This document shows positions 946 to 30,630 of a stretch of DNA of 44,051 nt, piece by piece (the stretch's first letter is position 1; the number at the start of each line of letters is the position of its first letter). Both the position numbers and the translations under genes were made by a program. The notes under the pieces were generated by a model. That model was not told where the DNA came from. It did not search any database and was given only the letters and a program-made list of their open reading frames with translations. Source of the stretch: a virus; the IMG/VR virus record IMGVR_UViG_3300047560_000849, positions 1-44,051 of that record; one strand, given 5' to 3'.

Positions 946-1545
946 ATGAACAAATATCTAAAGTATGAAGATTTCCCACCCATACCCGAAGAAATTTTAA
1001 TGACGCCACAACAAATCATTGATGCACCTTACTTTGGTCACAATGAAAAATTCGAAGCATTGCGTCATCCGTTTGCTAAAGCAAATTACTTTAGAAAACA
1101 AGTTAATCCTGAACTCAAAGAATGGTTGTTAAAAACATTCCCATTCAGATTTGCGTCAATGTTTGTTATTTTTAACGCAAGAATGCCGCCCCACAAAGAC
1201 ATTCGCAACATGACATACAATTATATCATAGATGCCGGTGGCGATGATATTGCCACATCAGTCTGGAGCGGAAACATTGTACGAGTTGATGCCAAAGCCG
1301 ATGCTTGGCATAGTATTCGTGCTGATTACGAAGATAAACAAGAAAACGAAGAAGTTGTCTTGTTAGAAAGTATGGTCATTCAACCTAAACGTTGGTGCAG
1401 TCTAAGAACTGACATGCTACACAGTGTAGATGGAACTCAAGTTAGACCACGTATTATTCTGTCAGTAGTTCCTGAATCAGAAGTACCAATACCCAAAGAC
1501 CCAATACTCGCAGAAGATATTAAATCTTGGTTTGAGATTTGGTAA
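946..1545 (+). CDS. 2-oxoglutarate/Fe(II) oxygenase-like protein, copy 1
   Basis: 199 aa. The pattern PPHKD (H83, D85) followed by H159 and R169 in the context MLHSVDG...RPRI fits the His-x-Asp...His...Arg iron and 2-oxoglutarate site of the double-stranded beta-helix oxygenases. Such enzymes hydroxylate proteins, small molecules or nucleic acids; the substrate here is unknown. AGAGGAA lies 6 nt before the ATG. The next gene is a paralog with the same spacing of key residues and begins directly after this stop codon in the same frame. Related oxygenase genes are common in T4-like marine phages. The fold call is moderate and the substrate is not inferable. Confidence 0.65.
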   Translation: MNKYLKYEDFPPIPEEILMTPQQIIDAPYFGHNEKFEALRHPFAKANYFRKQVNPELKEWLLKTFPFRFASMFVIFNARMPPHKDIRNMTYNYIIDAGGDDIATSVWSGNIVRVDAKADAWHSIRADYEDKQENEEVVLLESMVIQPKRWCSLRTDMLHSVDGTQVRPRIILSVVPESEVPIPKDPILAEDIKSWFEIW

Positions 1546-2085
1546 ATGTATATCGGTTATATTGACGCACTTCCTAAGATACCAGAGTATCTATTAGAAG
1601 ATCCTGAAGTCATTGCAGGCAAGCCACAGAATCCAGAATCTAAACACGGACATGCTATGTGGTTTAAAGTCAAACAAGTTCCACAAGAACTACATGATTG
1701 GCTTCAATCAATCTTTCCATTTGAAATTCATTCACAATATCAAGTGATGAATCATCAACTTCCTAAACACAAAGACCCTGATAGGGACATTGCATTAAAC
1801 TATCTACTCACTGCCGGTGGCAATAATGTATCTACTGTTGCGTTTCATCCTCTTTATTCAAGAGAACGTGTGCAAACAATGATAATTGAAGAAAAACGAT
1901 GGCATTTTATAAAAACAAAAATGTTTCATCGTGTGTATGATGTTGATCCTGACAAGTTGCGAATTGCAATCAGTGTCATTCCCAAAGATCAAGAAAAATT
2001 CTTCATTGATTATTTTAAAACGACTGATATTACATCAGACGCTCCCATTAACTGGCAGGGATGCTTGGAGTCGAACCAAGGATAA
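1546..2085 (+). CDS. 2-oxoglutarate/Fe(II) oxygenase-like protein, copy 2
   Basis: 179 aa, a paralog of the gene before it. Shared features are KHKD (H75, D77), NYLLTAGG shortly after, and MFH(128)RV followed by R139 in LRIAISVIP. The ATG follows the upstream TAA with no gap and in the same frame, and there is no clear Shine-Dalgarno site, so it is probably translated by coupling or, less likely, by stop-codon readthrough. The last ten or so codons (2053-2085) lie inside a tRNA-Gln gene on the opposite strand, so the C-terminal tail is partly dictated by tRNA sequence. Substrate unknown. Confidence 0.62.
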   Translation: MYIGYIDALPKIPEYLLEDPEVIAGKPQNPESKHGHAMWFKVKQVPQELHDWLQSIFPFEIHSQYQVMNHQLPKHKDPDRDIALNYLLTAGGNNVSTVAFHPLYSRERVQTMIIEEKRWHFIKTKMFHRVYDVDPDKLRIAISVIPKDQEKFFIDYFKTTDITSDAPINWQGCLESNQG

Positions 2086-3270: not shown

Positions 3271-3278
3271 ACTAAATA
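3271..3278 (+). promoter_or_regulatory. Late promoter ACTAAATA, leaderless start
   Basis: The box is followed by TCACG (5 nt) and then ATG at 3284. By the T4 late rule (box at -13 to -6) the A of the ATG is +1, predicting a leaderless mRNA. No Shine-Dalgarno site is present. Confidence 0.6.
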
Positions 3279-3283
3279 TCACG

Positions 3284-3883
3284 ATGAACGTCAAAAGTAT
3301 GCAAGAAACAGTCGGTTCCGACGTGTATACACTAACCCACTACTTTGATACAAACGATTGCTACGACATTGTTAAGCAACGATGTGAGGAATTTTGGAAA
3401 AATGCACCGAAAGATGACAGCGCAGAGAACTATCAGTTCGGTGATGATGCAAAAGCATGGTCGCTAGGACCAATGCTTAAAAACAATGATTTTGCCGGTG
3501 GTTACACTATTTTAAGCGTAAATGATGTTCCTTGGTCGTTTGGTGGTATCAAACATTATACCGATGAAATAGCGTTAATTTTAGGAAGACATTTTTGCTT
3601 TTTCACGTTGAGACCAATGACGATTGGATTGCTAGTTCCATTTCAACTAGAGATTGCTAAAGAGCTAGGATTCAAAAAAGCGTGGATCACAATGATGGGT
3701 TACAATGACAGAATGTATAGAACTTGGCAACTAACGTCTAGTGAATACGATACTAACAGACACAAGAAAAGAGATAATATTTTGTATAAAAACACTGATT
3801 CAGTTGTAGAAAGAGTAAACAATCTCGGGAAACAAATTGTCAACTATACTGAACAATCAGTCATGGAGTGGTCATTAGAATGA
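3284..3883 (+). CDS. GNAT-like acyltransferase candidate
   Basis: 199 aa. The C-terminal half reads TLRPMTIGLLVPFQ, then LEIAKELGFKKAWITMMGYND, which resembles the beta4-alpha3-beta5 region of GNAT N-acetyltransferases, ending in an asparagine often seen there. A clear acetyl-CoA loop was not seen, so this is a fold guess. The start follows a late promoter with no leader. The stop overlaps the start of the radical SAM gene (ATGA at 3880-3883), so the two are one transcription unit and probably act together. Confidence 0.45.
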   Translation: MNVKSMQETVGSDVYTLTHYFDTNDCYDIVKQRCEEFWKNAPKDDSAENYQFGDDAKAWSLGPMLKNNDFAGGYTILSVNDVPWSFGGIKHYTDEIALILGRHFCFFTLRPMTIGLLVPFQLEIAKELGFKKAWITMMGYNDRMYRTWQLTSSEYDTNRHKKRDNILYKNTDSVVERVNNLGKQIVNYTEQSVMEWSLE

Positions 3884-5643
3884 AGTCTGTAAATGTTGCA
3901 TTCTACTCACCATCAATGGATTTTACCAGATCAACTAGAGTAAAAATCACAGACTTGATGGTTAATCCCACACCTTATTACCTGAATGGATATTTTAAAA
4001 AGAACTACCCAGACTATGCTCAATACATAGTTTGGAAGCCTAGTATTCTATACAAACAAACTGATGAAGAACTAGTAGAGTTCATGGTGAGACATGATAT
4101 AGATGTGTTCTGTGCTAGCTTGTACTTGTGGAATGTTGACGCTACCATGAGAACATTGCCTAACATTAAACGTATGTACCGAGAACGTACTGGTAAGTTA
4201 GTTAAGATTGTACTAGGTGGACCAAGTTGCGATGCGTTATACGATGACTGGCAAGAAACATATCCGTTCGTTGACCACTTTGTTGTAGGACAAGGGGAGA
4301 AAGCATGGGCAAATCTTGCGTTAGATTTTTTAGGTGTGTCTCGGTTAGATGGTAGTGCATCAAACATTGTACATTTTGTAAGAGACACGAAGGAAAAATC
4401 ATACAACTATGAATTCATTCGCGGAATACATTACAGTCCATACTTAGAAAGCCAAGACTTAGTTAAAGAACTTATCAACGTATACGAGGAACTTGGGTTC
4501 AAGTTAGCTTGGCCATATGAAACACAACGTGGATGCCCTTATCACTGTACGTTCTGTGATTGGAACGGTGGTCAAAGTAACAAGACACAAAAACGCAAAG
4601 AGATAAACTTTTTAGATGAGATAGATTTCTTTGCTGAAAACAAAATGTATAACCTTCACTTATCAGATGCAAACTTTGGTATGTGGGACGTTGACTTAGA
4701 TATAATGAAACGATTAGTTGAACACAAAGAGAACGGGCATCCGTTTACATTCTTTTCATTCAATATGTCAAAACTTATAAACAAGAACTTCAAAGAAATT
4801 ATGAAGTTGATTGTTAAGCACAACTTCAACGGCGTGTGGGTCAAATTAAGTGTACAAGATATAAACCCAGATGTACTAGAAGCAATCGACAGACCGGGTG
4901 ACTGGAATCAGCTTAAAGAGTTTGGGTTAGATTTGTATAAAGAATTCCATATTACCAAGAACTTAAATAAAATATTTGTTGAGTTGATACTAGGCTTGCC
5001 AGGACAAACGTATGATAGTTGGATTGCAACGTTAGATGAGGTTTACTCTAGTGGTTTTATCCCACGCACATATCCATTTTTGTTATTAAGAAATGCTCCT
5101 GCTACATATGACGTAGCGTATCGTGAAAAGTTTGGCATAAAAGATGGGTTAGCATTTGAAGTGTTAGACACAATACTAGAAGGAAACAATGTACAAGAGA
5201 TTGTGAACGATACTATCAACAATTATAAAATACATCAAATCGTTGAATGCAATACTTTTAGCGAAAGAGATTACGTTAGAATGTCAATGGCTGACCAAAT
5301 GTACAGACGTTTGTGCAGTAGAACTAAATGGAGGGCATATGGCTTTGTTGACGTTAATTGGAAACATCTAAAACCAATCATCACAAAAATGATGCAGACA
5401 GATGATTGGAATTATGTATTAGAACAGCGGTATCACAATTTTAAAACGCATAGAATCAATGCACTAGATTCTAGTGAAGGTAAAATTCTTGTTGATGGTA
5501 ACGATATGTCTAGTATCATTGCTCGTAATTTTCATATCATTGAAGAAAGTTTTAACGAGACAAATATTGACAAAGAAATTGCTGAACAATTTTTATCAGA
5601 GTGGCAAACGTTCTTGCCAACTAAAAATTTCTTAGACAGATAA
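3880..5643 (+). CDS. B12-binding-type radical SAM protein
   Basis: 587 aa from the ATG overlapping the upstream stop; GGAG lies about 10 nt before it, and this start is preferred over one 12 nt upstream. Residues about 70-150 resemble a cobalamin-binding Rossmann domain (VLGGPS at 111-116, VVGQGE at 135-140). RGCPYHCTFCDW supplies the CxxxCxxC [4Fe-4S] motif at C219, C223 and C226, followed by a radical SAM TIM barrel. Such enzymes use SAM, often with B12, for methylations and other radical chemistry. The substrate is unknown. The 3' end overlaps the convergent gene by 12 nt. The class call is firm. Confidence 0.85.
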   Translation: MKSVNVAFYSPSMDFTRSTRVKITDLMVNPTPYYLNGYFKKNYPDYAQYIVWKPSILYKQTDEELVEFMVRHDIDVFCASLYLWNVDATMRTLPNIKRMYRERTGKLVKIVLGGPSCDALYDDWQETYPFVDHFVVGQGEKAWANLALDFLGVSRLDGSASNIVHFVRDTKEKSYNYEFIRGIHYSPYLESQDLVKELINVYEELGFKLAWPYETQRGCPYHCTFCDWNGGQSNKTQKRKEINFLDEIDFFAENKMYNLHLSDANFGMWDVDLDIMKRLVEHKENGHPFTFFSFNMSKLINKNFKEIMKLIVKHNFNGVWVKLSVQDINPDVLEAIDRPGDWNQLKEFGLDLYKEFHITKNLNKIFVELILGLPGQTYDSWIATLDEVYSSGFIPRTYPFLLLRNAPATYDVAYREKFGIKDGLAFEVLDTILEGNNVQEIVNDTINNYKIHQIVECNTFSERDYVRMSMADQMYRRLCSRTKWRAYGFVDVNWKHLKPIITKMMQTDDWNYVLEQRYHNFKTHRINALDSSEGKILVDGNDMSSIIARNFHIIEESFNETNIDKEIAEQFLSEWQTFLPTKNFLDR

Positions 5644-6384
5644 CATCATTTCAGCGCATTCATTGAAGTCAACTAAATCTTCTTGACCATGCGTGTCGAT
5701 GATAAGGTGCAGTCTTGCTTCAGTTCCGTTATTATCTACCCAATGTTTGATTCCACTGTTGAAGAAAAACACAGAACCATCTGCTGGCATGTGATATAAA
5801 TGAGTTTCATCGCCTTTACTGAATCCCATAACTACGTTTTCGTTTGTAATCAAAGGGATATGATAGCGTGTGATATATGATGGATCGTAGTCTACATGCG
5901 GTTTGATTGAGAAGCCAGGGGTTAAGTATGCAAGACGCACACGTGTGATTTTACCCTTGAATTGATTTAGTATATCTTCGAACGGACCAGTGGCGTACTT
6001 GTTTCTTACTCCATAGTTTAGCTCGTCAGCTTCAGGGAGATATCTCGGATCGTTTGGATCAAGACGCTTAGTTCGTTCAAAGATATTCGTGCCATGTAAA
6101 TTAACTTTTCCACTTGCTTTTGATTCATCAAAATCAGTCAAGTATAGTTGCTTGTACTTTTCACCCTCCATGGTAGGGGCTTCGTTTTCAGTAAAAAAGT
6201 TAGTCTTACAAAATTCGTTGCTTACTAGAAATGCCTGATGTTTACTGTTTGCACTGTACTTGATATCATTGTACTTTGTGCTATCCAATAAATCGTTTTG
6301 GCGGCAATGTTCTAAAATCGCATTTACATCGACTTTGATATTGTTTAATTTAGCGACTAAGGGCAATTGTTTTCTGTTTAGCAT
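5632..6384 (-). CDS. Asp/Asn beta-hydroxylase-like 2OG oxygenase
   Basis: 250 aa. The C-terminal half carries KPHVDYD (H163, D165), RYHIPL, and GIKHWVDN (H214) with R224, the iron and 2-oxoglutarate ligands of the aspartyl/asparaginyl beta-hydroxylase family (PF05118 type). FFFNSGIKHWV is typical of this group. The N-terminal 120 residues are unassigned. The ATG stands 5 nt after a TATAAATA box, so it should be a leaderless single-gene unit. The 3' end overlaps the convergent radical SAM gene by 12 nt. The substrate is unknown; proteins or a peptide/glycan product of the same cassette are possible. Confidence 0.72.
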   Translation of the reverse strand: MLNRKQLPLVAKLNNIKVDVNAILEHCRQNDLLDSTKYNDIKYSANSKHQAFLVSNEFCKTNFFTENEAPTMEGEKYKQLYLTDFDESKASGKVNLHGTNIFERTKRLDPNDPRYLPEADELNYGVRNKYATGPFEDILNQFKGKITRVRLAYLTPGFSIKPHVDYDPSYITRYHIPLITNENVVMGFSKGDETHLYHMPADGSVFFFNSGIKHWVDNNGTEARLHLIIDTHGQEDLVDFNECAEMMLSV

Positions 6385-6389
6385 AACTG

Positions 6390-6397
6390 TATTTATA
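6390..6397 (-). promoter_or_regulatory. Late promoter TATAAATA, leaderless start
   Basis: Perfect T4 late box on minus. The spacer CAGTT (5 nt) leads straight into the ATG at 6384. The box overlaps the stop codon of the upstream gene (6393-6395). Confidence 0.65.
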
Positions 6398-6869
6398 GAA
6401 GGATAGGAATTTTGAGATTATTGAACGCTGGATCAAATATGCCAGCAGGGATATCAAGAAAGTCATGGAACTCTAAGTTATCTGTTGTGGTGCGCTGTGT
6501 TACAAACTCAACACCCTGCTCAACGTTGAATGATTTTTTATAAGCAAAATTGGAACTGGCATTTTGTCTAATTTCTTCAATCCCTCTTTCTGTTTCTGCA
6601 TCACGCTTCAGATACAAAAAATAACTATGCTTAACGGTATGTGTGTAGTCGTAAATTGCACAATTCATCACACAATCTTCTAACTTCATAAGACCCTTTA
6701 ATGCGTACATTCTATCAGGCAATGTCTCTTTGATTTCTTCAAAAAACTTACTATCAGGTCTTGTCTTTTTGTTAGTGTACCATTCTTTAACGTACACCCC
6801 GTTCTCCGTGCGCTTGTACACTTGGCATCGCAAATGCAATACCGTTAGGCTTTGAGTGACGCATTGCAT
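6393..6869 (-). CDS. Hypothetical protein, downstream part of a probable frameshifted gene
   Basis: Open frame of 158 codons. The first 15 or so residues look like off-frame translation, while from QVYKRTENGVYVKEW onward it reads like a normal charged protein. The upstream frame (6787-7125) degenerates at the same place. A +1 shift around 6830-6836 (codons ATG CCA AGT) would join the two into one protein of about 240 aa. Either this is a real or sequencing-derived frameshift, or the gene starts at ATG 6869 and overlaps its neighbour by 83 nt. No family recognised. Confidence 0.5.
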   Translation of the reverse strand: MQCVTQSLTVLHLRCQVYKRTENGVYVKEWYTNKKTRPDSKFFEEIKETLPDRMYALKGLMKLEDCVMNCAIYDYTHTVKHSYFLYLKRDAETERGIEEIRQNASSNFAYKKSFNVEQGVEFVTQRTTTDNLEFHDFLDIPAGIFDPAFNNLKIPILL

Positions 6870-7125
6870 CTTTGAATACTTCTTTAACCTGTCCTTTATC
6901 GTATAGGCAATCAGTCATTCTGGCATAGTCTTCAAAGTCTGGAAGCCAAAATGTACAGTAATATATATTATCACTATAGTATCCTTCTGTTACTTCACAG
7001 TTATCACTAAATTCTTTAGTGGTGTCTTTGATTCTATCAAACCAAGTGGGGTCAACATCAACGTGAAAGGGCACGTTAGGGTTAGGTCTAATGTAAATCT
7101 GTGTGCGTTTAATTTTGTGTATCAT
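6787..7125 (-). CDS. Hypothetical protein, upstream part of a probable frameshifted gene
   Basis: 112 codons. The ATG overlaps the upstream stop (ATGA at 7122-7125), so it belongs to the leftward operon. The N-terminus reads MIHKIKRTQIYIRPNPNVPF and the middle is rich in aromatic and acidic residues. After IAFAMPS the frame gives SVQAHGERGVR and stops, whereas the +1 frame continues as a plausible protein (see 6393-6869). No family recognised. The two pieces probably encode one cassette protein. Confidence 0.5.
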   Translation of the reverse strand: MIHKIKRTQIYIRPNPNVPFHVDVDPTWFDRIKDTTKEFSDNCEVTEGYYSDNIYYCTFWLPDFEDYARMTDCLYDKGQVKEVFKDAMRHSKPNGIAFAMPSVQAHGERGVR

Positions 7126-7841
7126 AATAGTTCAGTAATCCATTTCGTTCCTAATTCATGTTCAACTTCAATTCCATCAAACACCATGAATGCATATAAA
7201 TGATCCGTATAATCTATATAGTGTGGATTGCGTGATCCATCAAACATAAATGACATGATTTTACCGTCTTTGGGTAATTTGATAGAGTTGTACTGAATGT
7301 CTAGTTGCTTAATTCTTTTATAGTCAACATAGTATCTAGGTGGAAACAATTCTCGTTGTGAATTGTACCAAAAGCCTGCGGTATCGTCAGACTCTTTATC
7401 AATATAAAGAGGGATAGCAAACGACCATACGTTACAACAATCACCGTTTAATAGACTGTGTAAATGTTTTACGCCTAGTTGTGCTCCAGTTATGTTTGTA
7501 CTAAACGTGATAAAACTTGTTTTAACTCCGGTCGTTCGCTGTGCTACATATTCGTTTACCCACTCAAACTTTTCCTTTAACAAATCATAAACCGTTGTGT
7601 TTTTAAACACTTCATCGAAACTGTCAATACCCGGAACTAGTTCAGAAAAATGTGTTGTGGGATAACTCAAAATGTTTGGTTGTTCACTATTATCCAGCGC
7701 TTGGTGGTTATGTTCTTCAAGTGATTTATTGTTTTTGATAAAGTGTGAACGTGGGGTAAATTCTGTAAATGCTTGAAGTAGTTCAGGTCGTATAGACATG
7801 AAATCTTCGTAATCTAACAAGGTCCTATTAAACTCTTTCAT
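7122..7841 (-). CDS. Hypothetical protein, possible cupin/2OG oxygenase fold
   Basis: 239 aa. Histidines occur in VKHLHSLLNG and again in SRNPHYIDYTDHLYAF, with beta-strand-like stretches between (VWSFAIPLYID, KIMSFMF), which would suit a double-stranded beta-helix. The HxD motif is not clear, so the enzymatic call is weak. ATGA overlaps link it at both ends to the DegT-type gene upstream and the next gene downstream, placing it in the desaturase/aminotransferase operon. Confidence 0.5.
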   Translation of the reverse strand: MKEFNRTLLDYEDFMSIRPELLQAFTEFTPRSHFIKNNKSLEEHNHQALDNSEQPNILSYPTTHFSELVPGIDSFDEVFKNTTVYDLLKEKFEWVNEYVAQRTTGVKTSFITFSTNITGAQLGVKHLHSLLNGDCCNVWSFAIPLYIDKESDDTAGFWYNSQRELFPPRYYVDYKRIKQLDIQYNSIKLPKDGKIMSFMFDGSRNPHYIDYTDHLYAFMVFDGIEVEHELGTKWITELL

Positions 7842-8914
7842 TTTATTAATGCCTTTTTAACTGTGTCTGCTATCATATTTACTTGGTCATCTGATAAGTC
7901 ATATCTGCATGGGATATGTAAAATTCTATTGAAATATGTTTCACTTGTAGCTTTGTAACGACTGGCGCCGGCAAACTCACTAAATGCATCGTTGAAGTAT
8001 ACAGGTCTATGACTAGAATATGATTTCACATTGTTTTCTTCTAACGCTTTACTGATTTCATTCTTATATTCAGTTAGTAATACAAATGTCTGGTGATTGC
8101 CGTTTTCATATAACTCAGCGTCTTGCATCATACCAAATACACTATAGTAATACTTTGCAATTTTTCTAGCTTTTTCAATGTTTTGTTCCAATGAACGCAT
8201 CTTGTTCATAACGATTGCCGCACTTATCGCAGTATTGGATAATTTTAATTCAGGTTCTTCAACGTTGAATGATCCATAACCATATTGTCCGTCTACATTT
8301 GTTAGACCGCAGTAACGTTGTCCCCGAAACCAATTAGAATCGTTGCCCAGTATCATACCGCCTTCTCCAGCAGTCAATGGCTTGCCGTAACTAAAACTAA
8401 TAACAGAAGTGTTTGTTGTGTCTGACACTACACACGAATTGTCCGCACGTTTCATACCAAATGCAGGTGCCGCATCTTCAATGACTATTGCTTCATGTAT
8501 CTTTCTTGTATCTACGTACCTATTATTAATATGACTAGGTATTATCGCACGTACTTTATATAAATCTAGTAAATCATACACACTTGACATATCCATCAAG
8601 CCATACTTGTCTACACGAGAGTATAACGGAATTCCACCTGCTTTGATAATCGCACTTGCAATACCAAAAAATGTTATTGGCGGCATTATTACATATTGAT
8701 TTTGTATGTTGAGTTTCTTTAGTGCAAGATAAATGCCATTAGTGCAACTACTCACAAACACACTGTCACGTCCAGTTTTGTTTTTGAATTTTTCTTCTAA
8801 TGCTTTTATGTGTCTACTGTTGATTCCGCCCAGTGTGTCAGAGGATTCGAATAATCTTCCCGCATTTTGTAAATCTTTCTGTATGTCCCCGATAGAATAG
8901 ATTTGTATTGTCAT
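7838..8914 (-). CDS. DegT/DnrJ/EryC1-family PLP aminotransferase
   Basis: 358 aa, the usual length for this family. VSSCTNGIYLAL (about 54-65) is the PLP phosphate-binding region. IEDAAPAFG holds the ring-nitrogen Asp147, and SFSYGKPLTAGEGGMI has the Schiff-base Lys178 with the family GEGG signature. These enzymes make amino sugars or aminated cyclitols for glycans, antibiotics and surface polysaccharides. It lies second in a leftward operon behind the fatty acid desaturase (ATGA overlaps). A role in building a modified sugar is possible, but no nucleotide-sugar epimerase or dehydratase is in the window. Confidence 0.85.
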   Translation of the reverse strand: MTIQIYSIGDIQKDLQNAGRLFESSDTLGGINSRHIKALEEKFKNKTGRDSVFVSSCTNGIYLALKKLNIQNQYVIMPPITFFGIASAIIKAGGIPLYSRVDKYGLMDMSSVYDLLDLYKVRAIIPSHINNRYVDTRKIHEAIVIEDAAPAFGMKRADNSCVVSDTTNTSVISFSYGKPLTAGEGGMILGNDSNWFRGQRYCGLTNVDGQYGYGSFNVEEPELKLSNTAISAAIVMNKMRSLEQNIEKARKIAKYYYSVFGMMQDAELYENGNHQTFVLLTEYKNEISKALEENNVKSYSSHRPVYFNDAFSEFAGASRYKATSETYFNRILHIPCRYDLSDDQVNMIADTVKKALIK

Positions 8915-9657
8915 TTTTTGCGAATCAAATTAATAATATAGTATCCTATATCAATTTCCCACCAGCGTTCACCGATGTTCGGTCGACTTTGATATCTATG
9001 ATGATTGTTGTGCCAACCTTCTCCCCACATCAATAACCCTAACAACGGATTGTTTGTGCTATTGTCAGGAACATTATATCTACGATATCCCAATAAAGGA
9101 GTGTGACATACGGTGTTAATTAAACTACCTGCATTCCATAATACAACTGCTGGCACAATATATAATGTCATCAATGCCCAAGTTCCACCTAATGCAAACA
9201 TCAACAATGCCCATGCTAGATTAATGTGTAGATAGTACTTGTGAAAGAATTGATGTCCTTTATCACTGATTACAGGGCTTCTGCGAATGTTGATAGGACT
9301 AAACATAGATAAGAATTGTGCCCAAACATATCCGAGAACGACAGGGCTATGTGGGTCGCCTGGTTTATCAGCATTACCATGATGCATACGATGTGCGGCT
9401 GTCCATGTAAGAGAGCTACCAGTCAATCCCAAAGTAGCACAGAAAGTACCAAAATATTCAAAAAACTTATTTGTCTTAAAACTCTTATGTGTTAACAGTC
9501 TATGATATGTGATGCTCATACCAATACCACCAGTAAAGAAATAAACTAGAAACACAAGTAAAAAATCAGTCCACGCTGGTCCTGATAGTAACCACAACAC
9601 AGCTAAGATATGTGCGATTAGTTGAAGTGCAAATAATTTTTTGGCGGTTAGTAGCAT
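8911..9657 (-). CDS. Delta-9-type fatty acid desaturase
   Basis: 248 aa integral membrane di-iron enzyme. The three histidine boxes are HRLLTH (52-57), HRMHH (89-93) and HNNHH (216-220), the pattern of acyl-CoA/acyl-lipid delta-9 desaturases. Hydrophobic stretches near 10-30, 30-50, 140-160 and 160-180 fit the four-helix topology. It would insert a double bond in host acyl chains and change membrane fluidity. ATG 9657 is chosen because a GATAAATA box ends 5 nt before it; a TTG at 9672 would lie upstream of the predicted +1. It is the first gene of the operon that runs to 6393. Confidence 0.9.
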   Translation of the reverse strand: MLLTAKKLFALQLIAHILAVLWLLSGPAWTDFLLVFLVYFFTGGIGMSITYHRLLTHKSFKTNKFFEYFGTFCATLGLTGSSLTWTAAHRMHHGNADKPGDPHSPVVLGYVWAQFLSMFSPINIRRSPVISDKGHQFFHKYYLHINLAWALLMFALGGTWALMTLYIVPAVVLWNAGSLINTVCHTPLLGYRRYNVPDNSTNNPLLGLLMWGEGWHNNHHRYQSRPNIGERWWEIDIGYYIINLIRKK

Positions 9658-9662
9658 AAAAC

Positions 9663-9670
9663 TATTTATC
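9663..9670 (-). promoter_or_regulatory. Late promoter GATAAATA, leaderless start
   Basis: Box on minus, spacer GTTTT (5 nt), then ATG at 9657. It drives the desaturase-aminotransferase operon and is back to back with the plus-strand box at 9687. Confidence 0.6.
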
Positions 9671-9686
9671 AATGGCTCTTTTTGTC

Positions 9687-9694
9687 TATAAATA
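9687..9694 (+). promoter_or_regulatory. Late promoter TATAAATA, leaderless start
   Basis: Perfect late box, spacer CCAC (4 nt), then ATG at 9699. It lies inside the longest open frame, which shows that the upstream ATG at 9672 is probably not used. Confidence 0.6.
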
Positions 9695-9698
9695 CCAC

Positions 9699-10250
9699 AT
9701 GAATTTTGATAGCTTTAGTCACGGACAAATTAAAAGTAAGTTATGGTTATGTGAAGAATTAGAAAAGTACATACCCAAAAATAGTAATGTGAAAATATTA
9801 GGTAGCTGGTACAATATACTTGCGTTTATGTTGCTAACGAGAAATCCAAATAATTACAAGTCAATCGAAGGCATTGATATCAACCCAGATGTACAGAGTA
9901 TTGCAGATAAAATTTGCAATTATTGGATTGCAGAAAATCAATCAGTAACAAACACATTAGGTGACGCAAATAATGTCGAATACAGTGATACCCAAGTTGT
10001 CATTAACTGTAGCCCCGAACACATGGACAACACAGATTGGTACAAAAAAGTCCCCGAAGGGACTGTTGTGTGTATTCAATCAATTAGCATACATGATCCA
10101 TTGTATCCCTGGTTAATCACTACTCCGCATTACGGTGTTGAAGATATGAAAACAAAATATCCCATGAGTGCTATTAATTATAGCGGTCAAATTCGCATTG
10201 ACTATGGCTCATGGGGATATGATCGATATATGCTAATTGGTATTAAATAG
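9699..10250 (+). CDS. Class I SAM methyltransferase-like protein
   Basis: 183 aa from the ATG next to the late promoter. A Rossmann pattern is visible: VKILGSWYNILAF (motif I-like, but with GSW instead of GxGxG), then IEGIDINPDVQSIADK (acidic residue binding the SAM ribose), GDANNVEY, and VVINCSPEHM (motif IV-like). The substrate is unknown. It stands alone on the plus strand, back to back with the desaturase operon and convergent with AhpD (8-nt overlap). It may also be a related Rossmann protein that has lost catalysis, since the glycine loop is poor. Confidence 0.6.
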   Translation: MNFDSFSHGQIKSKLWLCEELEKYIPKNSNVKILGSWYNILAFMLLTRNPNNYKSIEGIDINPDVQSIADKICNYWIAENQSVTNTLGDANNVEYSDTQVVINCSPEHMDNTDWYKKVPEGTVVCIQSISIHDPLYPWLITTPHYGVEDMKTKYPMSAINYSGQIRIDYGSWGYDRYMLIGIK

Positions 10251-10782
10251 CAATTTTACCAATTGCATTAACTACTGCGGCAATGCGACCAATTGCCATC
10301 AATTCTTGCGTAGTCATGCCCTCTTTCTTTAATGTATCATAGTGTGCTTTAACACAGAAATGACATTTACCGATAATACTTGCGGCCAATGAATACATTT
10401 CAAATTTCTTCTTAGATACACCACCATGTGTAGCATACGCATTCATACGTAATCCTGCAGGAAGACCTTTCATGCCCTCATCAGCGGCCATTTCAACGAA
10501 TGGATACCAAACGTTGTTTTGACCCATGAGACTTGCGGCTGTCTTTGCGGCTTCACGTTCTGCCTCTGCTGAAAACAACGGACTGTTGTGTTCAATTTCA
10601 AATGCTAGCCCACCGTTACCTGCGGCTAATGCAGATACATACGCAATTGCATGAGTATCAACTGGATCTAAACCTGAACGATTGATAACTGCATCAATGT
10701 TTAATTTAATATCTTTACTGTGATCTGGGATACTATCTTTTACAGATTGTACCCAGTCACCATTAATTGTGATTGGTTGCAT
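10243..10782 (-). CDS. ahpD: AhpD-like alkylhydroperoxidase
   Basis: 179 aa, carboxymuconolactone decarboxylase/AhpD fold. E128, C140, C143 (CHFC) and H147 have the same mutual spacing as the catalytic Glu-Cys-Cys-His relay of mycobacterial AhpD, which reduces AhpC disulphides and is itself recharged by a lipoyl protein. The start is the ATG that overlaps the AhpC stop (TAATG at 10780-10784), not the frame extension upstream, which runs inside ahpC. An AhpC-AhpD pair is a complete peroxide-reducing unit apart from the electron donor. Very unusual in a T4-like phage. Confidence 0.88.
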   Translation of the reverse strand: MQPITINGDWVQSVKDSIPDHSKDIKLNIDAVINRSGLDPVDTHAIAYVSALAAGNGGLAFEIEHNSPLFSAEAEREAAKTAASLMGQNNVWYPFVEMAADEGMKGLPAGLRMNAYATHGGVSKKKFEMYSLAASIIGKCHFCVKAHYDTLKKEGMTTQELMAIGRIAAVVNAIGKIAI

Positions 10783-11327
10783 TATAGTGTGTCTCCACCT
10801 ATAGGACGTGAGCATGGGCATAGTTCGCCAGTTTGCAATGCGTCTAAGATACGCAATGTTTCGTCTGGTGAACGACCAACATCTAAGTTGTTTACTGTAA
10901 CGTGTTGAATAACGTTATCAGGATCAACAATGAATGTAGCACGTAGTGCGGCACCTGCTGGCTTGTAGAAGATACCTAGTTGTTCTGCTAGACTGTTCTC
11001 GTCACGTGCAACGTCAGCGAATGACCAACTATTTGTTTTCTTTAGGTCTTCGTGTGCATTACGCCATGCTAACTTACAGAATTCGTTATCTGTAGAACCA
11101 ATCAATAATACAGCATCACGGTCAGCAAAGTCTTGGTTCAACTTATCGTATGCTACGATTTCTGTAGGGCAAACGAATGTGAAGTCTTTTGGATAGTATA
11201 CGATAACTTTCCATTGACCTTGGAAGTCTTTATCTGTGATAGTTTGGAATGCGCCTTCTGGTGTCAATGCGCCTGGCTTAACGCCTGTAACTGCAAAACT
11301 TGTGATTTTATCGCCGATTGTTTTCAT
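10782..11327 (-). CDS. ahpC: AhpC-type peroxiredoxin
   Basis: 181 aa, 2-Cys peroxiredoxin that reduces hydroperoxides. The peroxidatic Cys53 lies in DFTFVCPTEI, and the C-terminal ELCPCSRP gives resolving cysteines C170/C172, resembling AhpD-partnered AhpC proteins. The C-terminus ends soon after this motif. A Shine-Dalgarno AAAGGA lies before the ATG, and ahpD follows with a 1-nt overlap. The pair would protect infected cells or phage enzymes such as the di-iron and Fe-S proteins encoded nearby from peroxide; that is inference. Confidence 0.92.
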   Translation of the reverse strand: MKTIGDKITSFAVTGVKPGALTPEGAFQTITDKDFQGQWKVIVYYPKDFTFVCPTEIVAYDKLNQDFADRDAVLLIGSTDNEFCKLAWRNAHEDLKKTNSWSFADVARDENSLAEQLGIFYKPAGAALRATFIVDPDNVIQHVTVNNLDVGRSPDETLRILDALQTGELCPCSRPIGGDTL

Positions 11328-11830: not shown

Positions 11831-12130
11831 TTAGTCGTTTGATGGGGAGAGACCGTTGCTATGCTTATCGGTTGATTTGTCTAAGTCTTGGAACAAACGT
11901 TTTTCTTGTGCTGTTAGTCTATCTTTGTGTGTTACACGTGGATTACCGCACAAATAGCATTTTGGATTTCCGCAATCCATAGCGTGATGTTTAGCTAATC
12001 GATGTTTCTGTTTGATGTTCTGTTGATTGAATGAACCGTGACTTTTTGCAATTTTAACTTGTCTTGCAATTGCTACGTCTGTTTTATGACGGCGGCGACT
12101 GTTAAGGAATTTTGCTTGTTCGTTAGCCAT
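11831..12130 (-). CDS. Conserved-type small zinc-binding protein, 99 aa
   Basis: Basic N-terminal half (SRRRHKTDVAIARQVKIAK), then KHHAMDCGNPKCYLCGNPR with a Cys cluster (C-x4-C-x2-C) and upstream histidines that could bind zinc, and a polar tail. The ATG lies inside the end of iscU (8-nt overlap), so the two are co-translated. No named family. The Cys motif and the fusion-like coupling to iscU suggest a possible metal or Fe-S role, but that is a guess. Confidence 0.6.
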   Translation of the reverse strand: MANEQAKFLNSRRRHKTDVAIARQVKIAKSHGSFNQQNIKQKHRLAKHHAMDCGNPKCYLCGNPRVTHKDRLTAQEKRLFQDLDKSTDKHSNGLSPSND

Positions 12131-12509
12131 TTGTTTTCTTTCTGTAATCTTCTACTGCGGCTTTGATTGCATCTTCTGCAAGGATTGAGCAGTGGATTTT
12201 AACTGGGGGGAGGGCGAGTTCTTCGGCAATGTCTGAGTTTTTGAGGGCATTTGCTTCGTCAATTGTTTTTCCCTTAACCCATTCTGTGACCAAACTGCTT
12301 GAAGCAATTGCCGACCCGCACCCATATGTCTTAAATTTAGCATCTTCTATGATTCCTGTTAAAGGGTTTACTTTGATTTGTAATTTCATTACGTCCCCGC
12401 AAGCAGGGGCTCCAACCATCCCTGTCCCTACATATTCTTCGTCTTTCGCAAAACTCCCAACATTTCTAGGGTTTTCGTAATGGTCAATAACTTTGTCGCT
12501 GTAAGCCAT
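12123..12509 (-). CDS. iscU: IscU iron-sulphur cluster scaffold
   Basis: 128 aa, full length. It closely follows proteobacterial IscU: the N-terminus MAYSDKVIDHYENPRNVGSF differs from the E. coli protein by one residue as I recall it. The cluster ligands C37, D39, C64, H106 and C107 are present, as is the LPPVK motif that HscA recognises. It would accept sulphur from host IscS and build clusters for Fe-S proteins. A TATAAATA box (12528-12535) and AGTAGGAGAC precede the ATG. No other isc gene is in the window, so it must rely on host partners. The close similarity to bacterial IscU suggests recent acquisition or strong constraint. Confidence 0.95.
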   Translation of the reverse strand: MAYSDKVIDHYENPRNVGSFAKDEEYVGTGMVGAPACGDVMKLQIKVNPLTGIIEDAKFKTYGCGSAIASSSLVTEWVKGKTIDEANALKNSDIAEELALPPVKIHCSILAEDAIKAAVEDYRKKTNG

Positions 12510-18055: not shown

Positions 18056-19261
18056 TTAAAATTGGTCGTGTTCTGTAGAAGTTTTGTTTGCAACAGTAGA
18101 TGTGGCACCAACTGCTTCACTAATCAAGTCAAAGTATCCAACACCAACTTCACGCTGATGTTTAACTGTTGTGAAGCCACGTTCTTGTGCGGCAAACTCA
18201 CGTTGTTGCATTTCTGAATAGCCAGCCATACCACGTTCTTTGTATACTTCTGCTAATTCAAATGTAGCTAAGTTTACACTATGAAAGCCCGCAAGTGTAA
18301 TGAATTGGAACTTATAACCCAATTCTCCTAGTTCACGTTGGAATGTTTCACATTCTTCTACTGACAAGAACTTGCGCCAGTTAAAACTTGGAGAGCAGTT
18401 GTAGGCAAGCATTTGATCTGGGAACTGTGCGTGAATGGCGTCTGCAAATTTCTTGGCTTGCTTAATGTCTGGGGTGGAAGTTTCAAACCAAAGCAAATCA
18501 GCAAAAGGAGCATAAGCCAAGCCACGAGCGATACAAGCATCAATGCCATTCCTGAATTTGTAAAATCCTTCTTCTGTGCGTTCATTTATAATAAAATCCT
18601 TATCTAATGGGTCATGGTCTGATGTAATTAATGTTGCGGCTTCTGCATCTGTTCTCGCCATAATAACCGTGTCTACTCCTGCAACATCAGCCGCTAATCG
18701 TGCGGCGTTCAATGTACGAATCATTTGACTTGTTGGTACTAATACTTTGCCACCTAAGTGACCGCATTTCTTTTCACTTGCTAGTTGGTCTTCAAAGTGA
18801 ACACCGGCTGCACCCGCTTCAATCATATGTGTCATTAACTCATATGCGTTCAATGCACCACCGAAGCCTGCTTCTGCATCTGCTACGATAGGCAAGAAAT
18901 AATCTGTTGTTACATTACCTTCACTGTGTTCAATTTGGTCAGCACGACGGAATGCGTTGTTGATGCCTTTCACTACACGAGGAACACTGTCAACAGGATA
19001 TAGACTTTGATCTGGATATGTTGTATTGCTTGTGTTGTTTGCGGCTGCTACTTGCCAGCCACTTAAGTAAATTGCTTTCAACCCTGCTTTAGCGTGTTGT
19101 ACAGCCATTTGACCGTTATATGCACCTAGTGTGTTGATATAGGGTTCGTTAGCTAATAGTTCACGCAATTTGTATGCGCCTCGTTTTGCTAATGTGTGTT
19201 CGATCTGTACACTACCTTGTAGCTTCTGTACCGTTTCTTTTGTATAGTTTCTTTTTTTCAC
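18056..19261 (-). CDS. aceA: Isocitrate lyase
   Basis: 401 aa. It cleaves isocitrate to glyoxylate and succinate, the first step of the glyoxylate shunt. Present are YLSGWQVAA (65-73), the metal site [10 protein letters not shown] (126-135), the catalytic loop KKCGH (164-168, C166), GKVLVPT, and NCSPSFNW (288-295), with a complete C-terminus (STEHDQF). KKCGH rather than KRCGH argues for isocitrate lyase over methylisocitrate lyase. The GTG start at 19261 follows AAGGACACACAC, 10 nt after the nrdA stop; the longer frame from 19315 lies inside nrdA. The N-terminus is about 20 aa shorter than E. coli AceA. No malate synthase is in the window. Confidence 0.95.
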
Positions 19262-19271
19262 GTGTGTGTCC

Positions 19272-21587
19272 TTAAAGTTTACATGCTTCACAATCTTCTT
19301 CCGCATCAAAATCAATTGCTTCTAGCGGAGCTTGTGTTTCTTCTTCTGATTTACTACCTTGCTTATTTATTAAGCTGTAATAAAATGTTTTTAGTCCCCA
19401 CATATGTGATTGCATTAAGTTCTTAGCAATCAACGTTGTAGGCACTTTTCGATTTGGGAAATGTGCAGGATTATAGAAAGTGTTAGTTGAAATAGATTGG
19501 TCTACGTATGCTTGGATAACAGCCGCAGTTTTCAGATATCCATCACAATCAGATTGATCCCACATTAACTGATACTTGTTCTTCAATTTATGATATTCAG
19601 GCACAACTTGAGTGAATGACCCGGCTTTACTTTCTTTTACTGTAATTAAACTCATTGGCATTTCAATACCATTTGTAGAGTTAATCACAACACTACTAGA
19701 TTCAACAGGGGCAACTGCCATTTGCGTTGCATTACGCACACCATAACTTCTCATCTTTGCACGTAAACCTTCCCAGTTTAGTTCTGGTGTAAAGTCTGCT
19801 AACTCATTGACTCCCTTCGCTCTGCGTTCCCAAGGGAAAACACCTTTACCATAATATGTTTGGTCACTGTTTTTACAACGTCCTCTTTCTTCTGCCAATT
19901 CAACAGAAGCCTCAGTTAGATAGTATGCTTGATGTTCCATCCAACTCTTAACTTCAGCTAATGCATCTTTTTCACCGTACTTGAAACTGCGCTTTGCATG
20001 CCAATAAGCCAAGTTAGTGATGCCGATTCCAATAGGGCGAATTTCTTCATTAGACAGTCTACTTTGAATACTTAGAAAATCTTGGTAATCCAAAATGTTA
20101 TTAAGACTGCGATGCAAAATGCGGCAAGCACGGCGCATGTCTTCCGGATTTCTAAAGGCACCCCAGTTGATACTGCCGAGCGTACACAAAGCGATGCGAC
20201 CATCAGCATCATCCAAACGTTTAAAAGGTTTTGTAGGTAGTAAGATTTCACAGCAAAGGTTACTCTGATAAATTGTATGGTATTCGGGGTCAAACGGACC
20301 TTGGTTCATAACGTTGTCTATGAATACCAAATAGATACGACCAGTGTCAGTGCGTTCTTTTAATATGCCGCCTTTGAATACTTCTTCGGCTGACATTGTT
20401 TTCTTTCTTAAACCTTTTTGCTTTTCATACTTGACATACAGTTCTTCAAAAAGCTCAGTGTTTTGATAGAAGGCTTCGTAAAGATCCGGGCACTCATTGG
20501 GGTCAAAGAAAGTGATATTCTCTTTGTTTTTAAATCGTCTCCAAAAGAAACTTGACAGAACCACGCCGTAGTCCATATGACGGACTCGTGTCTCTTCCGT
20601 ACCCTGATTGTTTTTGAGTACAATAAGGTCATCAAACTGGTGATGCCAAATGGGATAAAAAACCGTAGCTGACGCATTGCGAATACCACCTTGTGAACAT
20701 GAACGTAAATCACCAAACCATTTCTTTAAGAATGGGATCATACCTGTGTGCATAATTTCGCCACCTCTGATGGGACTGCCAAGGGGCCTCAAACGACCAA
20801 TCTCTAAACCTATCCCTGCCCGTTTAGAGGCATACTTAGCCATCATCTCACCAGATGCGAAAATACTATCTAAATCATCATCACTACGAATCAATACGCA
20901 AGAGCTAAATTGCTTAGTAGGTGTTCCCAATCCCGCAAGCACAGGTGTTGCGAGTGTGAACAATCCGTCGCTTGCACAGTTGTAGTATTCTTTGATGTAT
21001 CGCATTCTTGCGTTGTTTGGTTCTTCTTTGTGGAAGACAGTTGCAGAAGCGACCATATACCGAATTTGTGGAGTTTCATATATTTCCTTTGTGCTACGAT
21101 TTTTAACTAGATATTTCTCAATCAGTTGTTCGATTGCCGCATAAGAATATTGCTCATCCTTTTCATGCTCAAGCATGTCATTCATCTTGTTCCAATCTTC
21201 TTCACTATACCATTCTAATAGTTCGCTAGTGTACAGACCGGTGGCAACGTTCTTTTTTACAATTTCATAAAGGTGCGGAACCTCATAGTCACCGTATACG
21301 TCTTTACGTAGCATTGAAAGACGCATCTTACCTGCTACATATTGATAATTAGTGTGCCCAACATCTGGATTATGTTCTACGTCAATCAAATCTACAATTG
21401 CTCGTAGTGTGATTTCATCGATTTCTTTAGTAGTGATTCCATCATAAAAATGAAGTTGAGATTTAATCTCAATCATCGATGGACTTACATCTGCTATACC
21501 ACTACATACTTTCGCCACTTGTGCTTGCCATTTCTCTAACATTAACGGCTCTCTTTTACCGTTTCGCTTAATGACGTTTATGTTCAT
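19272..21587 (-). CDS. nrdA: Class Ia ribonucleotide reductase, alpha subunit
   Basis: 771 aa. It reduces ribonucleotides for phage DNA synthesis. The catalytic N-x-C-x-E is seen as SNLCCEI (about 440), the redox partner Cys in ALCTLGSIN, the first-half Cys in [10 protein letters not shown], and the C-terminal redox pair in CEACKL (766-771). The N-terminal 90 residues resemble an ATP-cone ([13 protein letters not shown]). GGTGAAGC precedes the ATG, which overlaps the upstream stop (ATGA). Full length with no visible defect. Confidence 0.95.
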
Positions 21588-22085: not shown

Positions 22086-25000
22086 TTAAGCGTATGTACC
22101 GTTTAGTGTATACCACTGAGTAGTAGTTGTTGATATGAAATCTAACTTACCACCTGCTGGTAATGAGTACGATGCGTTTGCGGCTTGAGAGTTAATTACA
22201 CCGTTAGTGCCAGGATATACTAACAGTGCGTTTGCACTAGTATTGACAACTGCCATTCTTAAACCAGCAACTACTGGAAGAATAACACCTGCACCTGAAG
22301 CAACAGTAGAAACTACGTTAAAGTCTTTAGTAATTGCAGTTGCGTTACCTTGAACTGTGCCTGCCGCTGATATACCGGTTGCAACACTGAATACATGGTT
22401 TGTAGTAGCAATTACGTTACCACCAGTAATATTACCAGTAGCAGTAATTAAACCACCTGTAGTTACGTTACCGCCGGTTACGTTACCTGTAACGCTGAAT
22501 GTGCCGTTAGCGTTGTATAATCTTGCTTTGATGTTACCTGTTAAGAAACCACCTGTAGCGAATACGATATCCTTAGTTGTACCAGTGTTACCAGTAGCGA
22601 TGACTAAGTTGCCACCAAAACTTGCATTACCTTGAACGAATAAATAACCATCGCCGGCTGCTGTTACGGTGTAGTTAGCGTCATTAAATGTGTTACCAGT
22701 GAAACCTATATCAGTCCAAGACTGAGTATCGTCACCATTATTACCATATGCAGTAATGTCAGCAGAACCAGTTCCTGTACTGTTAACTACAGCGACTTGA
22801 ACATATGTTAAACCATTATCTTTGAAAATAGCGATTGGGTTAGTAAATGATGTTGATGAGGCGCCATTACCAATGTACAAATCTGTTCCACCAATAATGT
22901 TGCCAGTTGCACTTATAACACCACCTGTGTTGATATTACCACCACCGATATTACCTGTTGCAGTAATTAAACCAGCAGTACCTAAATTACCTACGTTAGC
23001 ATTGCCAGTTGAACTTAATGTTGTTGCAAATACACCAGTAGTATTAACGTTTCCTGCACCTACGTTACCAGTTGCAGTGATTAGACCACTTGTTCCTATG
23101 TTACCGATATTTGCGTTACCAGATACAGATAAAGAAGTTAATGTACCTACTGCGGTCAAACTAGATGTAACAACAGTAGATTTTAACGTTGTTCCTGACA
23201 AGTTTGCGGCGTTTGCTTGTATTACAGTATTAGATGCGGCTGTTAATCTGCCTTGTGCATCTACTGTAAATGACGCAACAACATCAGAGCCACCATATGA
23301 AGCCGCTGATACTGTTGTATTGTTAAGACTGAATACTGTACCACTTAGATTTAGACCAACACCGTTGCTATAAACTTGTGATGTACTGAACAATGCAAAG
23401 TTAATGTTTGTAGTACCAAATGTAATAGTACCGGCTGTATTACATACATAAGCAGTACCAATGTTTACGTTACCACCAGATACAAAGAAATAATCGTTTT
23501 CGCTCAAGTCGCCGGCGCCTGTACCATACGAATCGGTGTCAGTAGAACGAACAATAGTTGTTGAGTTAGCCCAAGTATAAACGCCATTCCATGCGGCATT
23601 TGCTTCGTTCTTAACAAGAATACGAGTTCCAACAGTTTGTACGTTTGCAGTATCAATTAAATTAAAACTACCGGTTGTAACTAAGTTAGCGTTAACCCCG
23701 GCGGTTCCGTTGTTGTATGTAATTGTACCACCCGTTGTAGTAGCCAATGTTGTAGTTGTTGCGGCATTGACTGCGGCGTGATAATATAGACCAGTAGAAA
23801 CTAATCCATCAACATATGCTTTAGTAGCCGCATCGCTGTTGGCACTTGGTGTACCTAAGTTGTTAATGTAGTTTGAATTCATGTTGACGTTTGCGCCAAA
23901 TGAACCTGAACCTGTTGCTACTAATGCAGTAGTACCTATGTTACCAACGTTAGCATTACCTGTTGCACTTAGTGTAGTTGCAAATACACCTGTTGTATTA
24001 ACATTACCTGAGTTTACATTACCAGTAGCAGTAATCAATCCAGCTGTACCAATATTACCAATGTTTGCATTACCTGTTACAGATAAAGCACCACCTGTTA
24101 CTAAGTTACCAGCAGTAACATTTCCAGTCGATGTAATCAATCCAGCTGTACCAATATTACCGATGTTTGCATTACCTGATACACTTAATGATGTTAATGT
24201 ACCAGTGCTTGTGATATTTGGTTGAGCCGCAGTTGTTACTGTGCCTGCTGTGCCAGATGTTGCTACATTCAAGTTGGCAACTTGTGTTGTACTTGTTACA
24301 ACTAACGGAGCAGTACCTATAGACACACTTGATACTAATTGACCAGCAGTTTTTAAATTACCACCCGTGACGTTACCAGTAGCTGTAATCAACCCAGCTG
24401 TACCAATATTACCAATGTTTGCATTACCTGATACAGTTAATAATGCCGCAGTTGCAGTTCCACCGGTGACCAAATTACCACCAGTGATATTACCGGTTGA
24501 TGTAATCAATCCAGCGGTACCGATGTTGCCGATATTAGCATTACCCGTTACACTTAATGCGCCGCCTGTTACTAAGTTACCAGCTGTTACGTTACCGGTT
24601 GCAGTAATTAAACCACCTGTGCTAATATTAGCACCAATAACGTTACCGTTAACACTTAGTACATTTGTTGATTTATTAAATGTGAAGTTTGCTGAACCAC
24701 CGAAACCATCATTGTCATTAAATTGAACTTGTGTGTTTGAACCACCTGCTTGTTGGAAATCAACTGGACTTCCGTTAGCGTAGTAATAATTGTCTGTTTT
24801 GATACCACCAGTAGAAGTGTTACCAGTGACATTTAAATAACCTTGAGTATATATACCCTCTGCACCATCTGTTGTTTCGATTCCAAAGATGTTTGCTTTA
24901 CCTGATGAATTGAATTGTAATGCGGCTGCTTGATTATCAGCTAAATCCCATACAACATTATTTTGTTCAATAGAACCGATACCACCATTCTGTACATAGA

Positions 25001-25766: not shown

Positions 25767-25785
25767 TTTTTATTCCTATAACTCG

Positions 25786-25793
25786 TATTTATC
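25786..25793 (-). promoter_or_regulatory. Late promoter GATAAATA
   Basis: Box on minus, 19 nt before ATG 25766, with AGGAATA in the leader. Confidence 0.6.
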
Positions 25794-25836
25794 TATATTT
25801 CACATTGGATATTCCATCAACAGAGAGTATCATATT

Positions 25837-27708: not shown

Positions 27709-27709
27709 T

Positions 27710-30595: not shown

Positions 30596-30614
30596 AACTT
30601 TATCCTATTTCTTA

Positions 30615-30622
30615 TATTTATC
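30615..30622 (-). promoter_or_regulatory. Late promoter GATAAATA
   Basis: Box on minus, 19 nt before ATG 30595, with AGGATAAAG as Shine-Dalgarno. Confidence 0.6.
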
Positions 30623-30630
30623 TAAAACCA

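Follow-up and report, generated by a model that had tools for sequence, protein, structure and literature searches.

Enzymes that modify lipids and small molecules are already known as single components among phage auxiliary genes, and such genes are usually interpreted singly, a desaturase being taken, for example, as a change in membrane fluidity. According to a study of pelagimyophages (PMC7029224), an Asp/Asn hydroxylase is a core gene of these phages, freshwater members carry fabF, a stearoyl-CoA desaturase (SCD) and a 2-oxoglutarate (2OG) oxygenase, and radical S-adenosylmethionine (SAM) cassettes are reported. Lake Baikal phages carry a desaturase (PMC7678222). We analyzed a stretch of 44,051 bases, the virus record IMGVR_UViG_3300047560_000849 (the window), and describe in it a cassette of eight genes that includes a membrane desaturase, an AspH-type hydroxylase, a DegT aminotransferase and a B12-binding radical SAM enzyme. 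The portal protein is approximately 50% identical to that of T4-like jumbo phages, PA5oct and Atu_ph07 among them, and the window comes from a large virus of the T4-like kind that infects aquatic bacteria. Comparison contigs from related phages, other phages and bacterial clusters are denoted by L-numbers.

We put the probability at roughly 45% that the genes form a phage-borne biosynthetic or decorating cassette, equipped with T4-type late promoters, whose desaturase and AspH core is shared with clusters in Bdellovibrionota. The gene content, the coupling of reading frames, the conservation of promoters and of co-occurrence, and the intact catalytic residues are observed directly. Since these enzymes stay grouped both in phages and on bacterial chromosomes, they are probably directed at a single product; the claim that aquatic phages carry small biosynthetic pathways can be tested. 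A first-pass annotation of this DNA knew of no phage system of such composition. We likewise found no description of the conserved assembly, of its Bdellovibrionota counterpart or of repeated exchange in the literature searched, subscription papers being mostly outside that coverage. The earlier statement was too broad for the parts, since some are known from pelagimyophages (PMC7029224) and from the cluster of Pelagibacter phage Mosig.

Gene content and family assignments

All four transcription units proposed in the first-pass annotation (3284-5643, 9657-6393, 6384-5632 and 9699-10250) are present, as are the ATGA overlaps inside them. On the plus strand, a 199-aa protein labeled GNAT-like (3284..3883) is followed by the B12-binding radical SAM enzyme (3880..5643), with the junction at 3880-3883. 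The longest unit, on the minus strand, encodes the desaturase (8911..9657), a DegT/DnrJ/EryC1-type pyridoxal phosphate (PLP) aminotransferase (7838..8914) and two orphan proteins, u239 (239 aa, 7122..7841) and u252 (252-aa type, 6393..7125), joined at 8911-8914, 7838-7841 and 7122-7125. The AspH-type Fe(II)/2OG oxygenase (5632..6384, minus strand) has a unit to itself, as does a 183-aa protein labeled methyltransferase-like (MT; 9699..10250, plus strand), which diverges from the desaturase.

The identities proposed earlier for the desaturase, AspH, DegT and radical SAM proteins were borne out by PF00487, PF05118, PF01041 and PF04055. The desaturase matched its model at 57.6 bits (cut-off 29.7, E 2e-15) and aligned with SCD1 (4ymk) across 235 residues, with the His boxes HRLLTH, HRMHH and HNNHH and a fourth site, N181..H185, intact; by this alignment it is predicted to be an SCD-type acyl desaturase. 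AspH scored 45.9 bits (cut-off 22.6), and its HxD..H facial triad (H163, D165, H214) and the 2OG-binding R224 are invariant in the alignment. The nearest solved structure is Cpz10, at E 3e-5 over only about 90 residues, with the triad and Arg aligned; the facial triad of Cpz10 is H115, D117 and H160 (PMC9814697). Assignment of AspH as an LpxO lipid A hydroxylase was rejected (NF033391, 15.2 bits against an equivalog cut-off of 500). DegT, at 135.8 bits with the PLP Lys motif SFSYGK conserved and the VIEDAA motif present, is a genuine PF01041 member, and its score of 108 bits against the TIGR03588 equivalog cut-off of 423.5 does not identify it as the PseC sugar aminotransferase.

The radical SAM protein matched PF04055 above the cut-off (E 6e-13), and its CxxxCxxC motif is intact and invariant in the alignment. 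The N-terminal B12-binding domain fell just under the threshold (PF02310, 31.0 bits; cut-off 32.1). These features place the predicted product of 3880..5643 in the cobalamin radical SAM class, where it is closest to the cobalamin-dependent C-methyltransferases TokK, CysS and KedN5, the best match in the PDB being TokK (7kdx, E 1e-28). The match to the KedN5 model NF033712 (E 6e-33) reached 113.8 bits against a cut-off of 700, and we therefore call the protein KedN5-like rather than a member of that family.

The gene set is kept together in related phages

Conserved co-occurrence in related phages, on which the first-pass annotation had staked its claim of a single system, was found in six separate contigs from this clade: the window and five others, L002, L005, L010, L106 and L188 (L010 is 99.98% identical to L011, and the two were counted as one case). 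L002 has a gene order identical to that of the window, with desaturase, DegT, u239 and AspH 84-89% identical. The five-gene operon (desaturase-DegT-u239-u252-AspH) is kept with MT in L005, where the GNAT-like/radical SAM unit is replaced by another radical SAM gene and a 2OG-like protein. In L010 the operon is also kept, the radical SAM and GNAT-like genes are in swapped order, and MT is missing. L188 retains DegT-u239-u252-AspH with the end of the radical SAM gene, and a 48% identical desaturase has moved a short distance away. In L106 the start of the desaturase gene, at the end of the contig, adjoins the radical SAM and MT genes. A reading of L106 as an empty site, without the desaturase operon, was rejected, as the desaturase start is 75% identical and indicates a rearrangement. 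A diverged set in L037 has MT, desaturase, AspH and DegT in a single strand-coherent run.

The clade gene set has thus stayed together through at least three rearrangements, and because the genes remain together while their order changes, they likely work together. In L010, DegT and u239 are each approximately 52% identical to their window counterparts, compared to 79-85% for desaturase, u252 and AspH, so DegT and u239 appear to change as a pair.

Linkage of desaturase and AspH genes in other phages and in Bdellovibrionota

Among phage loci found by desaturase alone, eight of ten distinct ones have an AspH-type neighbor within 6 kb, compared to two of 48 radical SAM loci (Fisher P 1e-6; the count is biased upward, for a reason given below). 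Desaturase, aminotransferase and AspH genes occur together in Mosig and in L027; in L027 a tail-fibre-like gene overlaps that of the desaturase. In L038 and L039 a desaturase-AspH pair is followed by genes for a DUF932 protein, a ketoacyl synthase and a second desaturase; the position of the ketoacyl synthase between two desaturases points to acyl chemistry. Desaturase matches in Acinetobacter phages were set aside as not comparable, lying in 254-kb contigs with bacterial genes.

When a genome collection was scanned with AspH, a single contig was recovered, L041, belonging to a Bdellovibrionaceae metagenome-assembled genome; in it the AspH gene (51% identical) is flanked by two desaturases amid what appear, by eye, to be ordinary chromosomal genes. 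We surveyed 369 Bdellovibrionota genomes for chromosomal counterparts. AspH was found in 11 of them, and a PF00487 gene lies within 12 kb in eight of the 11 (0.45 expected, P 8e-10). An independent search of these 369 genomes with the cassette-type desaturase gave seven genomes with strong matches; five of the seven also have AspH, and the two genes there share a contig (P 2e-7). These neighborhoods contain TauD oxygenases, aminotransferases, cobalamin radical SAM enzymes, acyl desaturases and proteins of 130-195 aa with a twin-arginine-like start, and radical SAM relatives co-locate in three of the clusters. Judged by gene content, the bacterial clusters look biosynthetic. The L058/L101 cluster resembles that of Mosig, with TauD 59% and AspH 50% identical.

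In a tree of desaturases, the window's clade, L037, L038/L039 and seven Bdellovibrionota genomes form one clade (support 100/99), and explaining the whole tree takes seven or more transitions between phages and bacteria. The branching indicates that desaturase genes have passed repeatedly between these bacteria and phages.

Some bacterial clusters have further features. L095, L096 and L097 each contain two KedN5-like radical SAM enzymes, an HMGL-like enzyme, a LeuC/LeuD-type aconitase pair and an aminotransferase, to which L096 adds a carbamoyltransferase; these look like clusters for amino-acid-type natural products. The small twin-arginine-like proteins recur at L041:4690-5142, L093:3685-4083, L095:4345-4791, L096:3543-3992, L102:1238-1636, L103:7178-7768 and L104:13389-13826. 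Three of them were scanned and gave no significant family match.

Late-type promoters ahead of the units

The first-pass annotation had reported the same leaderless promoter form at every unit, and we found an nnTAAATA box 4-5 nt before the ATG in all four. The boxes are ACTAAATA at 3271..3278 (plus strand, 5 nt ahead of the GNAT-like start at 3284), TATAAATA at 6390..6397 (minus strand, 5 nt ahead of the AspH start at 6384), GATAAATA at 9663..9670 (minus strand, 5 nt ahead of the desaturase start at 9657) and TATAAATA at 9687..9694 (plus strand, 4 nt ahead of the MT start at 9699). The four leaderless sites in the 7.1-kb cassette compare with 0.57 expected, and four of 1000 dinucleotide shuffles reached this number. 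Both the boxes and their spacing agree with late promoters of the T4 type, in which a TATAAATA box is spaced at -10 relative to the start. In the geometry of T4 late promoters, a box at such spacing places the transcription start at the AUG, and leaderless late transcripts starting at the AUG are expected from the box spacing.

The boxes are conserved. The leaderless form ahead of AspH is kept in four of four contigs (the window, L002, L005 and L010) and that ahead of MT in three of three (including L002 and L005) as well as in L037. The box ahead of the GNAT-like gene is kept at the same spacing in three of three, the orthologues having GATAAATA (L002) and TACAAATA (L010). Ahead of the desaturase it is kept in three of four contigs (including L002 and L010) and in L037; the L005 desaturase is instead preceded by a 16-nt leader that contains GGAAGGA. 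In other late genes of the window the box lies farther upstream, at 12-22 nt, and several of these genes have a purine-rich leader.

The leaderless form also occurs ahead of 38178 and 32548 in the window, outside the cassette, and is enriched in the other large aquatic phages L012, L013 and L015 (7-8 seen, 1.1-1.3 expected). It is therefore a phage-wide promoter class and not a private signal of the cassette. A conserved late-type motif at each unit makes it plausible that these promoters co-regulate the cassette.

Orphan proteins and a separable radical SAM unit

Two labels given to cassette proteins in the first-pass annotation did not hold. The GNAT-like protein matched no family of any kind in Pfam or NCBIfam, had no significant PHROGs match and gave no GNAT match in the PDB; its only homologues are in L002 and L010, making it an orphan of the clade. 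The methyltransferase-like protein, which has homologues in L002, L005, L037 and L106, likewise matched no family in Pfam or NCBIfam, and the sole match to a methyltransferase model is that of a distant Mosig relative, which touches Methyltransf_11 at E 0.04. The open reading frames 7125-6787 and 6869-6393, previously taken as separate genes, are halves of the 252-aa gene u252. Relative to L002, L010 and L188, the window's copy is frameshifted by an 8-nt deletion (window 6787-6869), which may reflect either a genuine mutation or an error in assembly; u252 is intact in L002, L005, L010 and L188.

We found u239 only in the window's phage clade, with no significant match in Pfam, NCBIfam, PHROGs or PDB searches, and PDB searches with u239, u252 and the GNAT-like protein gave nothing significant. 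Structure prediction, which the first-pass annotation had proposed for such proteins, was carried out and yielded models too poor for use (mean pLDDT 35 for u239 and 46 for u252). Profile comparison revealed no kinship of u239 or u252 with AspH. None of u239, u252 and the GNAT-like protein was found in the bacterial clusters retrieved.

Cobalamin radical SAM genes of the KedN5 type occur at no fewer than 415 phage loci. The best 79 of these at least 415 loci fall into 47 clusters, nearly all without the cassette, and we dropped this gene as a diagnostic of the cassette. Since it is widespread without the cassette, the radical SAM unit is best regarded as a separate module that the cassette recruited. 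A sister phage group has an IscU-radical SAM-IscA operon, in which IscU overlaps by approximately 8 nt and an IscA-like gene lies approximately 6 nt downstream; among viral contigs L106-L184, IscU and IscA-like genes abut the radical SAM gene in 32 contigs each. This operon suggests that the IscU of the window (12123-12509) supplies Fe-S clusters.

The view of the cassette as one system rather than a random collection therefore stands in part. The gene set and the core pair are co-located; the system is not indivisible, as the radical SAM unit is separable, L005 has a different radical SAM gene and L010 lacks MT.

A possible pathway and alternative explanations

From the enzyme families, the cassette most likely yields an aminated, hydroxylated and unsaturated small molecule or glycolipid, and the steps that follow are proposed on the same grounds. 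The core would be the membrane desaturase and the soluble AspH-type hydroxylase. DegT, together with the orphans u239 and u252, would be added to this core, as would a methylating unit (radical SAM, GNAT-like and MT) that can be separated from it. DegT would place an amine onto a keto-sugar, cyclitol or similar precursor, AspH would hydroxylate an amino-acyl or acyl part, and the desaturase, in the membrane, would introduce a double bond into the attached acyl chain. The radical SAM enzyme could C-methylate an unactivated carbon, using Fe-S from the phage IscU and cobalamin from the host, and the GNAT-like and MT proteins would complete what is envisaged as a late-infection small molecule or glycolipid. 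A more specific version, which we hold only tentatively, is that the cassette and its counterparts in Mosig, L027, L037 and L038/L039 are phage versions of an undescribed family of biosynthetic gene clusters from Bdellovibrionota, a phylum with many predators, repeatedly exchanged, and make a specialized metabolite or lipid late in infection.

Several points weigh against a biosynthetic or decorating cassette. We infer its substrates, product and expression from sequence. No thioesterase, nonribosomal peptide synthetase, polyketide synthase or transporter gene is in the phage cassette, and with only a fragment of the phage genome in the window, gaps in the pathway cannot be assessed. Of the eight proteins, two belong to no family and a further two carry labels that the searches did not support. 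The window record has u252 in broken form, and phage radical SAM genes of the KedN5 type usually occur without desaturase or AspH, as expected of a separable unit. The AspH profile was partly trained on desaturase loci, so the phage count of linked pairs is biased upward, and the bacterial survey covered Bdellovibrionota.

The nearest rival is remodeling of the cell surface, in which the cassette would alter lipopolysaccharide, capsule or an envelope glycolipid, through an amino sugar, an acyl chain and methyl groups, and so block superinfection or change adsorption; it overlaps with a biosynthetic cassette if the product is an envelope lipid. DegT is closest to sugar aminotransferase models such as PseC, L005 has an apparent nucleoside diphosphate (NDP)-heptose gene set nearby (identified by eye), tail-fibre genes lie beside the Mosig cluster, a tail-fibre-like gene overlaps the desaturase in L027, and the co-swapped DegT/u239 alleles of L010 resemble antigen-style diversification. 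Pelagimyophage islands have been tied to host recognition and avoidance of coinfection (PMC7029224). We nevertheless consider surface remodeling rather unlikely, as the cassette has no glycosyltransferase or sugar-nucleotide gene and the bacterial counterparts resemble metabolite clusters, not O-antigen loci.

It is more doubtful still that the desaturase only raises the unsaturation of membrane lipids, the other genes being unrelated auxiliaries in a hypervariable region. The intact SCD-type catalytic residues would suit this role, and phage desaturases in Lake Baikal viruses have been so interpreted (PMC7678222), but linkage of desaturase and AspH far above chance in phages and bacteria, and a gene set that survives rearrangement, argue against it. 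Modification of a phage structural protein by the 2OG oxygenases, the radical SAM enzyme and their partners seems improbable. Human AspH is a protein hydroxylase, tail-fibre genes are adjacent in Mosig and L027, and most bacterial clusters hold a 130-195-aa protein with a twin-arginine-like N terminus (by eye), possibly exported by the twin-arginine translocation (Tat) system and modified there; such a protein was not seen in the phage cassette, however, and protein substrates are a poor match for an acyl desaturase of the membrane and for DegT.

Neighboring genes in the window

Two proteins just upstream on the plus strand are associated with the cassette and are not part of its core. The 2OG-oxygenase-like protein at 946..1545 has an HxD..H..R pattern by eye and is homologous to a 171-aa protein of L005, where the homologue adjoins AspH; it had no family match in Pfam or NCBIfam. 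A second 2OG-oxygenase-like protein is encoded at 1546..2085. Downstream, at 10243-11327, an AhpC peroxiredoxin gene overlaps that of an AhpD-like carboxymuconolactone decarboxylase (CMD) protein, and this pair near IscU is a phage redox/Fe-S block. In L005, the apparent NDP-heptose set (L005:4489-7039; nucleotidyltransferase, PfkB kinase, cupin, HAD and epimerase) is inserted between AhpC and the CMD gene. Elsewhere in the window, a gene between nrdA and nrdB (18056-19315; 85% identical copy in L106) encodes a protein whose sequence is reminiscent of isocitrate lyase, and four long tail-fibre-like proteins at 22086-32448 have many repeats of the type TGNANIGNIGTAGLITATGN.

Comparison with known systems

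The hypervariable host-recognition cluster and the lipid genes of pelagimyophages differ from the cassette in that the accessible part of PMC7029224 describes no DegT-u239-u252 operon and makes no claim of a single pathway. Pelagibacter phage Mosig EXVC030M (Mosig_00072-00081, MT647606) is like the cassette in having a desaturase next to AspH and an aminotransferase in a strand-coherent block, which also holds a peroxiredoxin, a GNAT, a methylase and a second AspH. The Mosig aminotransferase belongs to another family, however, the block includes TauD and a flavin mononucleotide (FMN) reductase, the record has no KedN5-type B12 radical SAM gene, and the homologues are only 28-33% identical to the window proteins. 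Among characterized enzymes, the C-methyltransferases TokK, CysS and KedN5 share with the window's radical SAM protein a B12 domain, a radical SAM domain, the CxxxCxxC motif and the best PDB matches, with a score below the NCBIfam cut-off separating it from the KedN5 family. Compared to the beta-hydroxylase Cpz10 of caprazamycin biosynthesis (PMC9814697), the nearest solved structure to AspH, the phage protein has an extra N-terminal half.

The Bdellovibrionota clusters (L041, L054-L057, L093, L094 and L101-L104) differ from the cassette in their extra desaturases, Tat-like small proteins and membrane proteins and in that u239, u252 and the clade's GNAT-like protein were not found there. Like the cassette, they have AspH, B12 radical SAM enzymes and aminotransferases, in addition to TauD, and several hold a desaturase of the same clade as the window (support 100/99). 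These bacterial clusters may give access to the product in culture.

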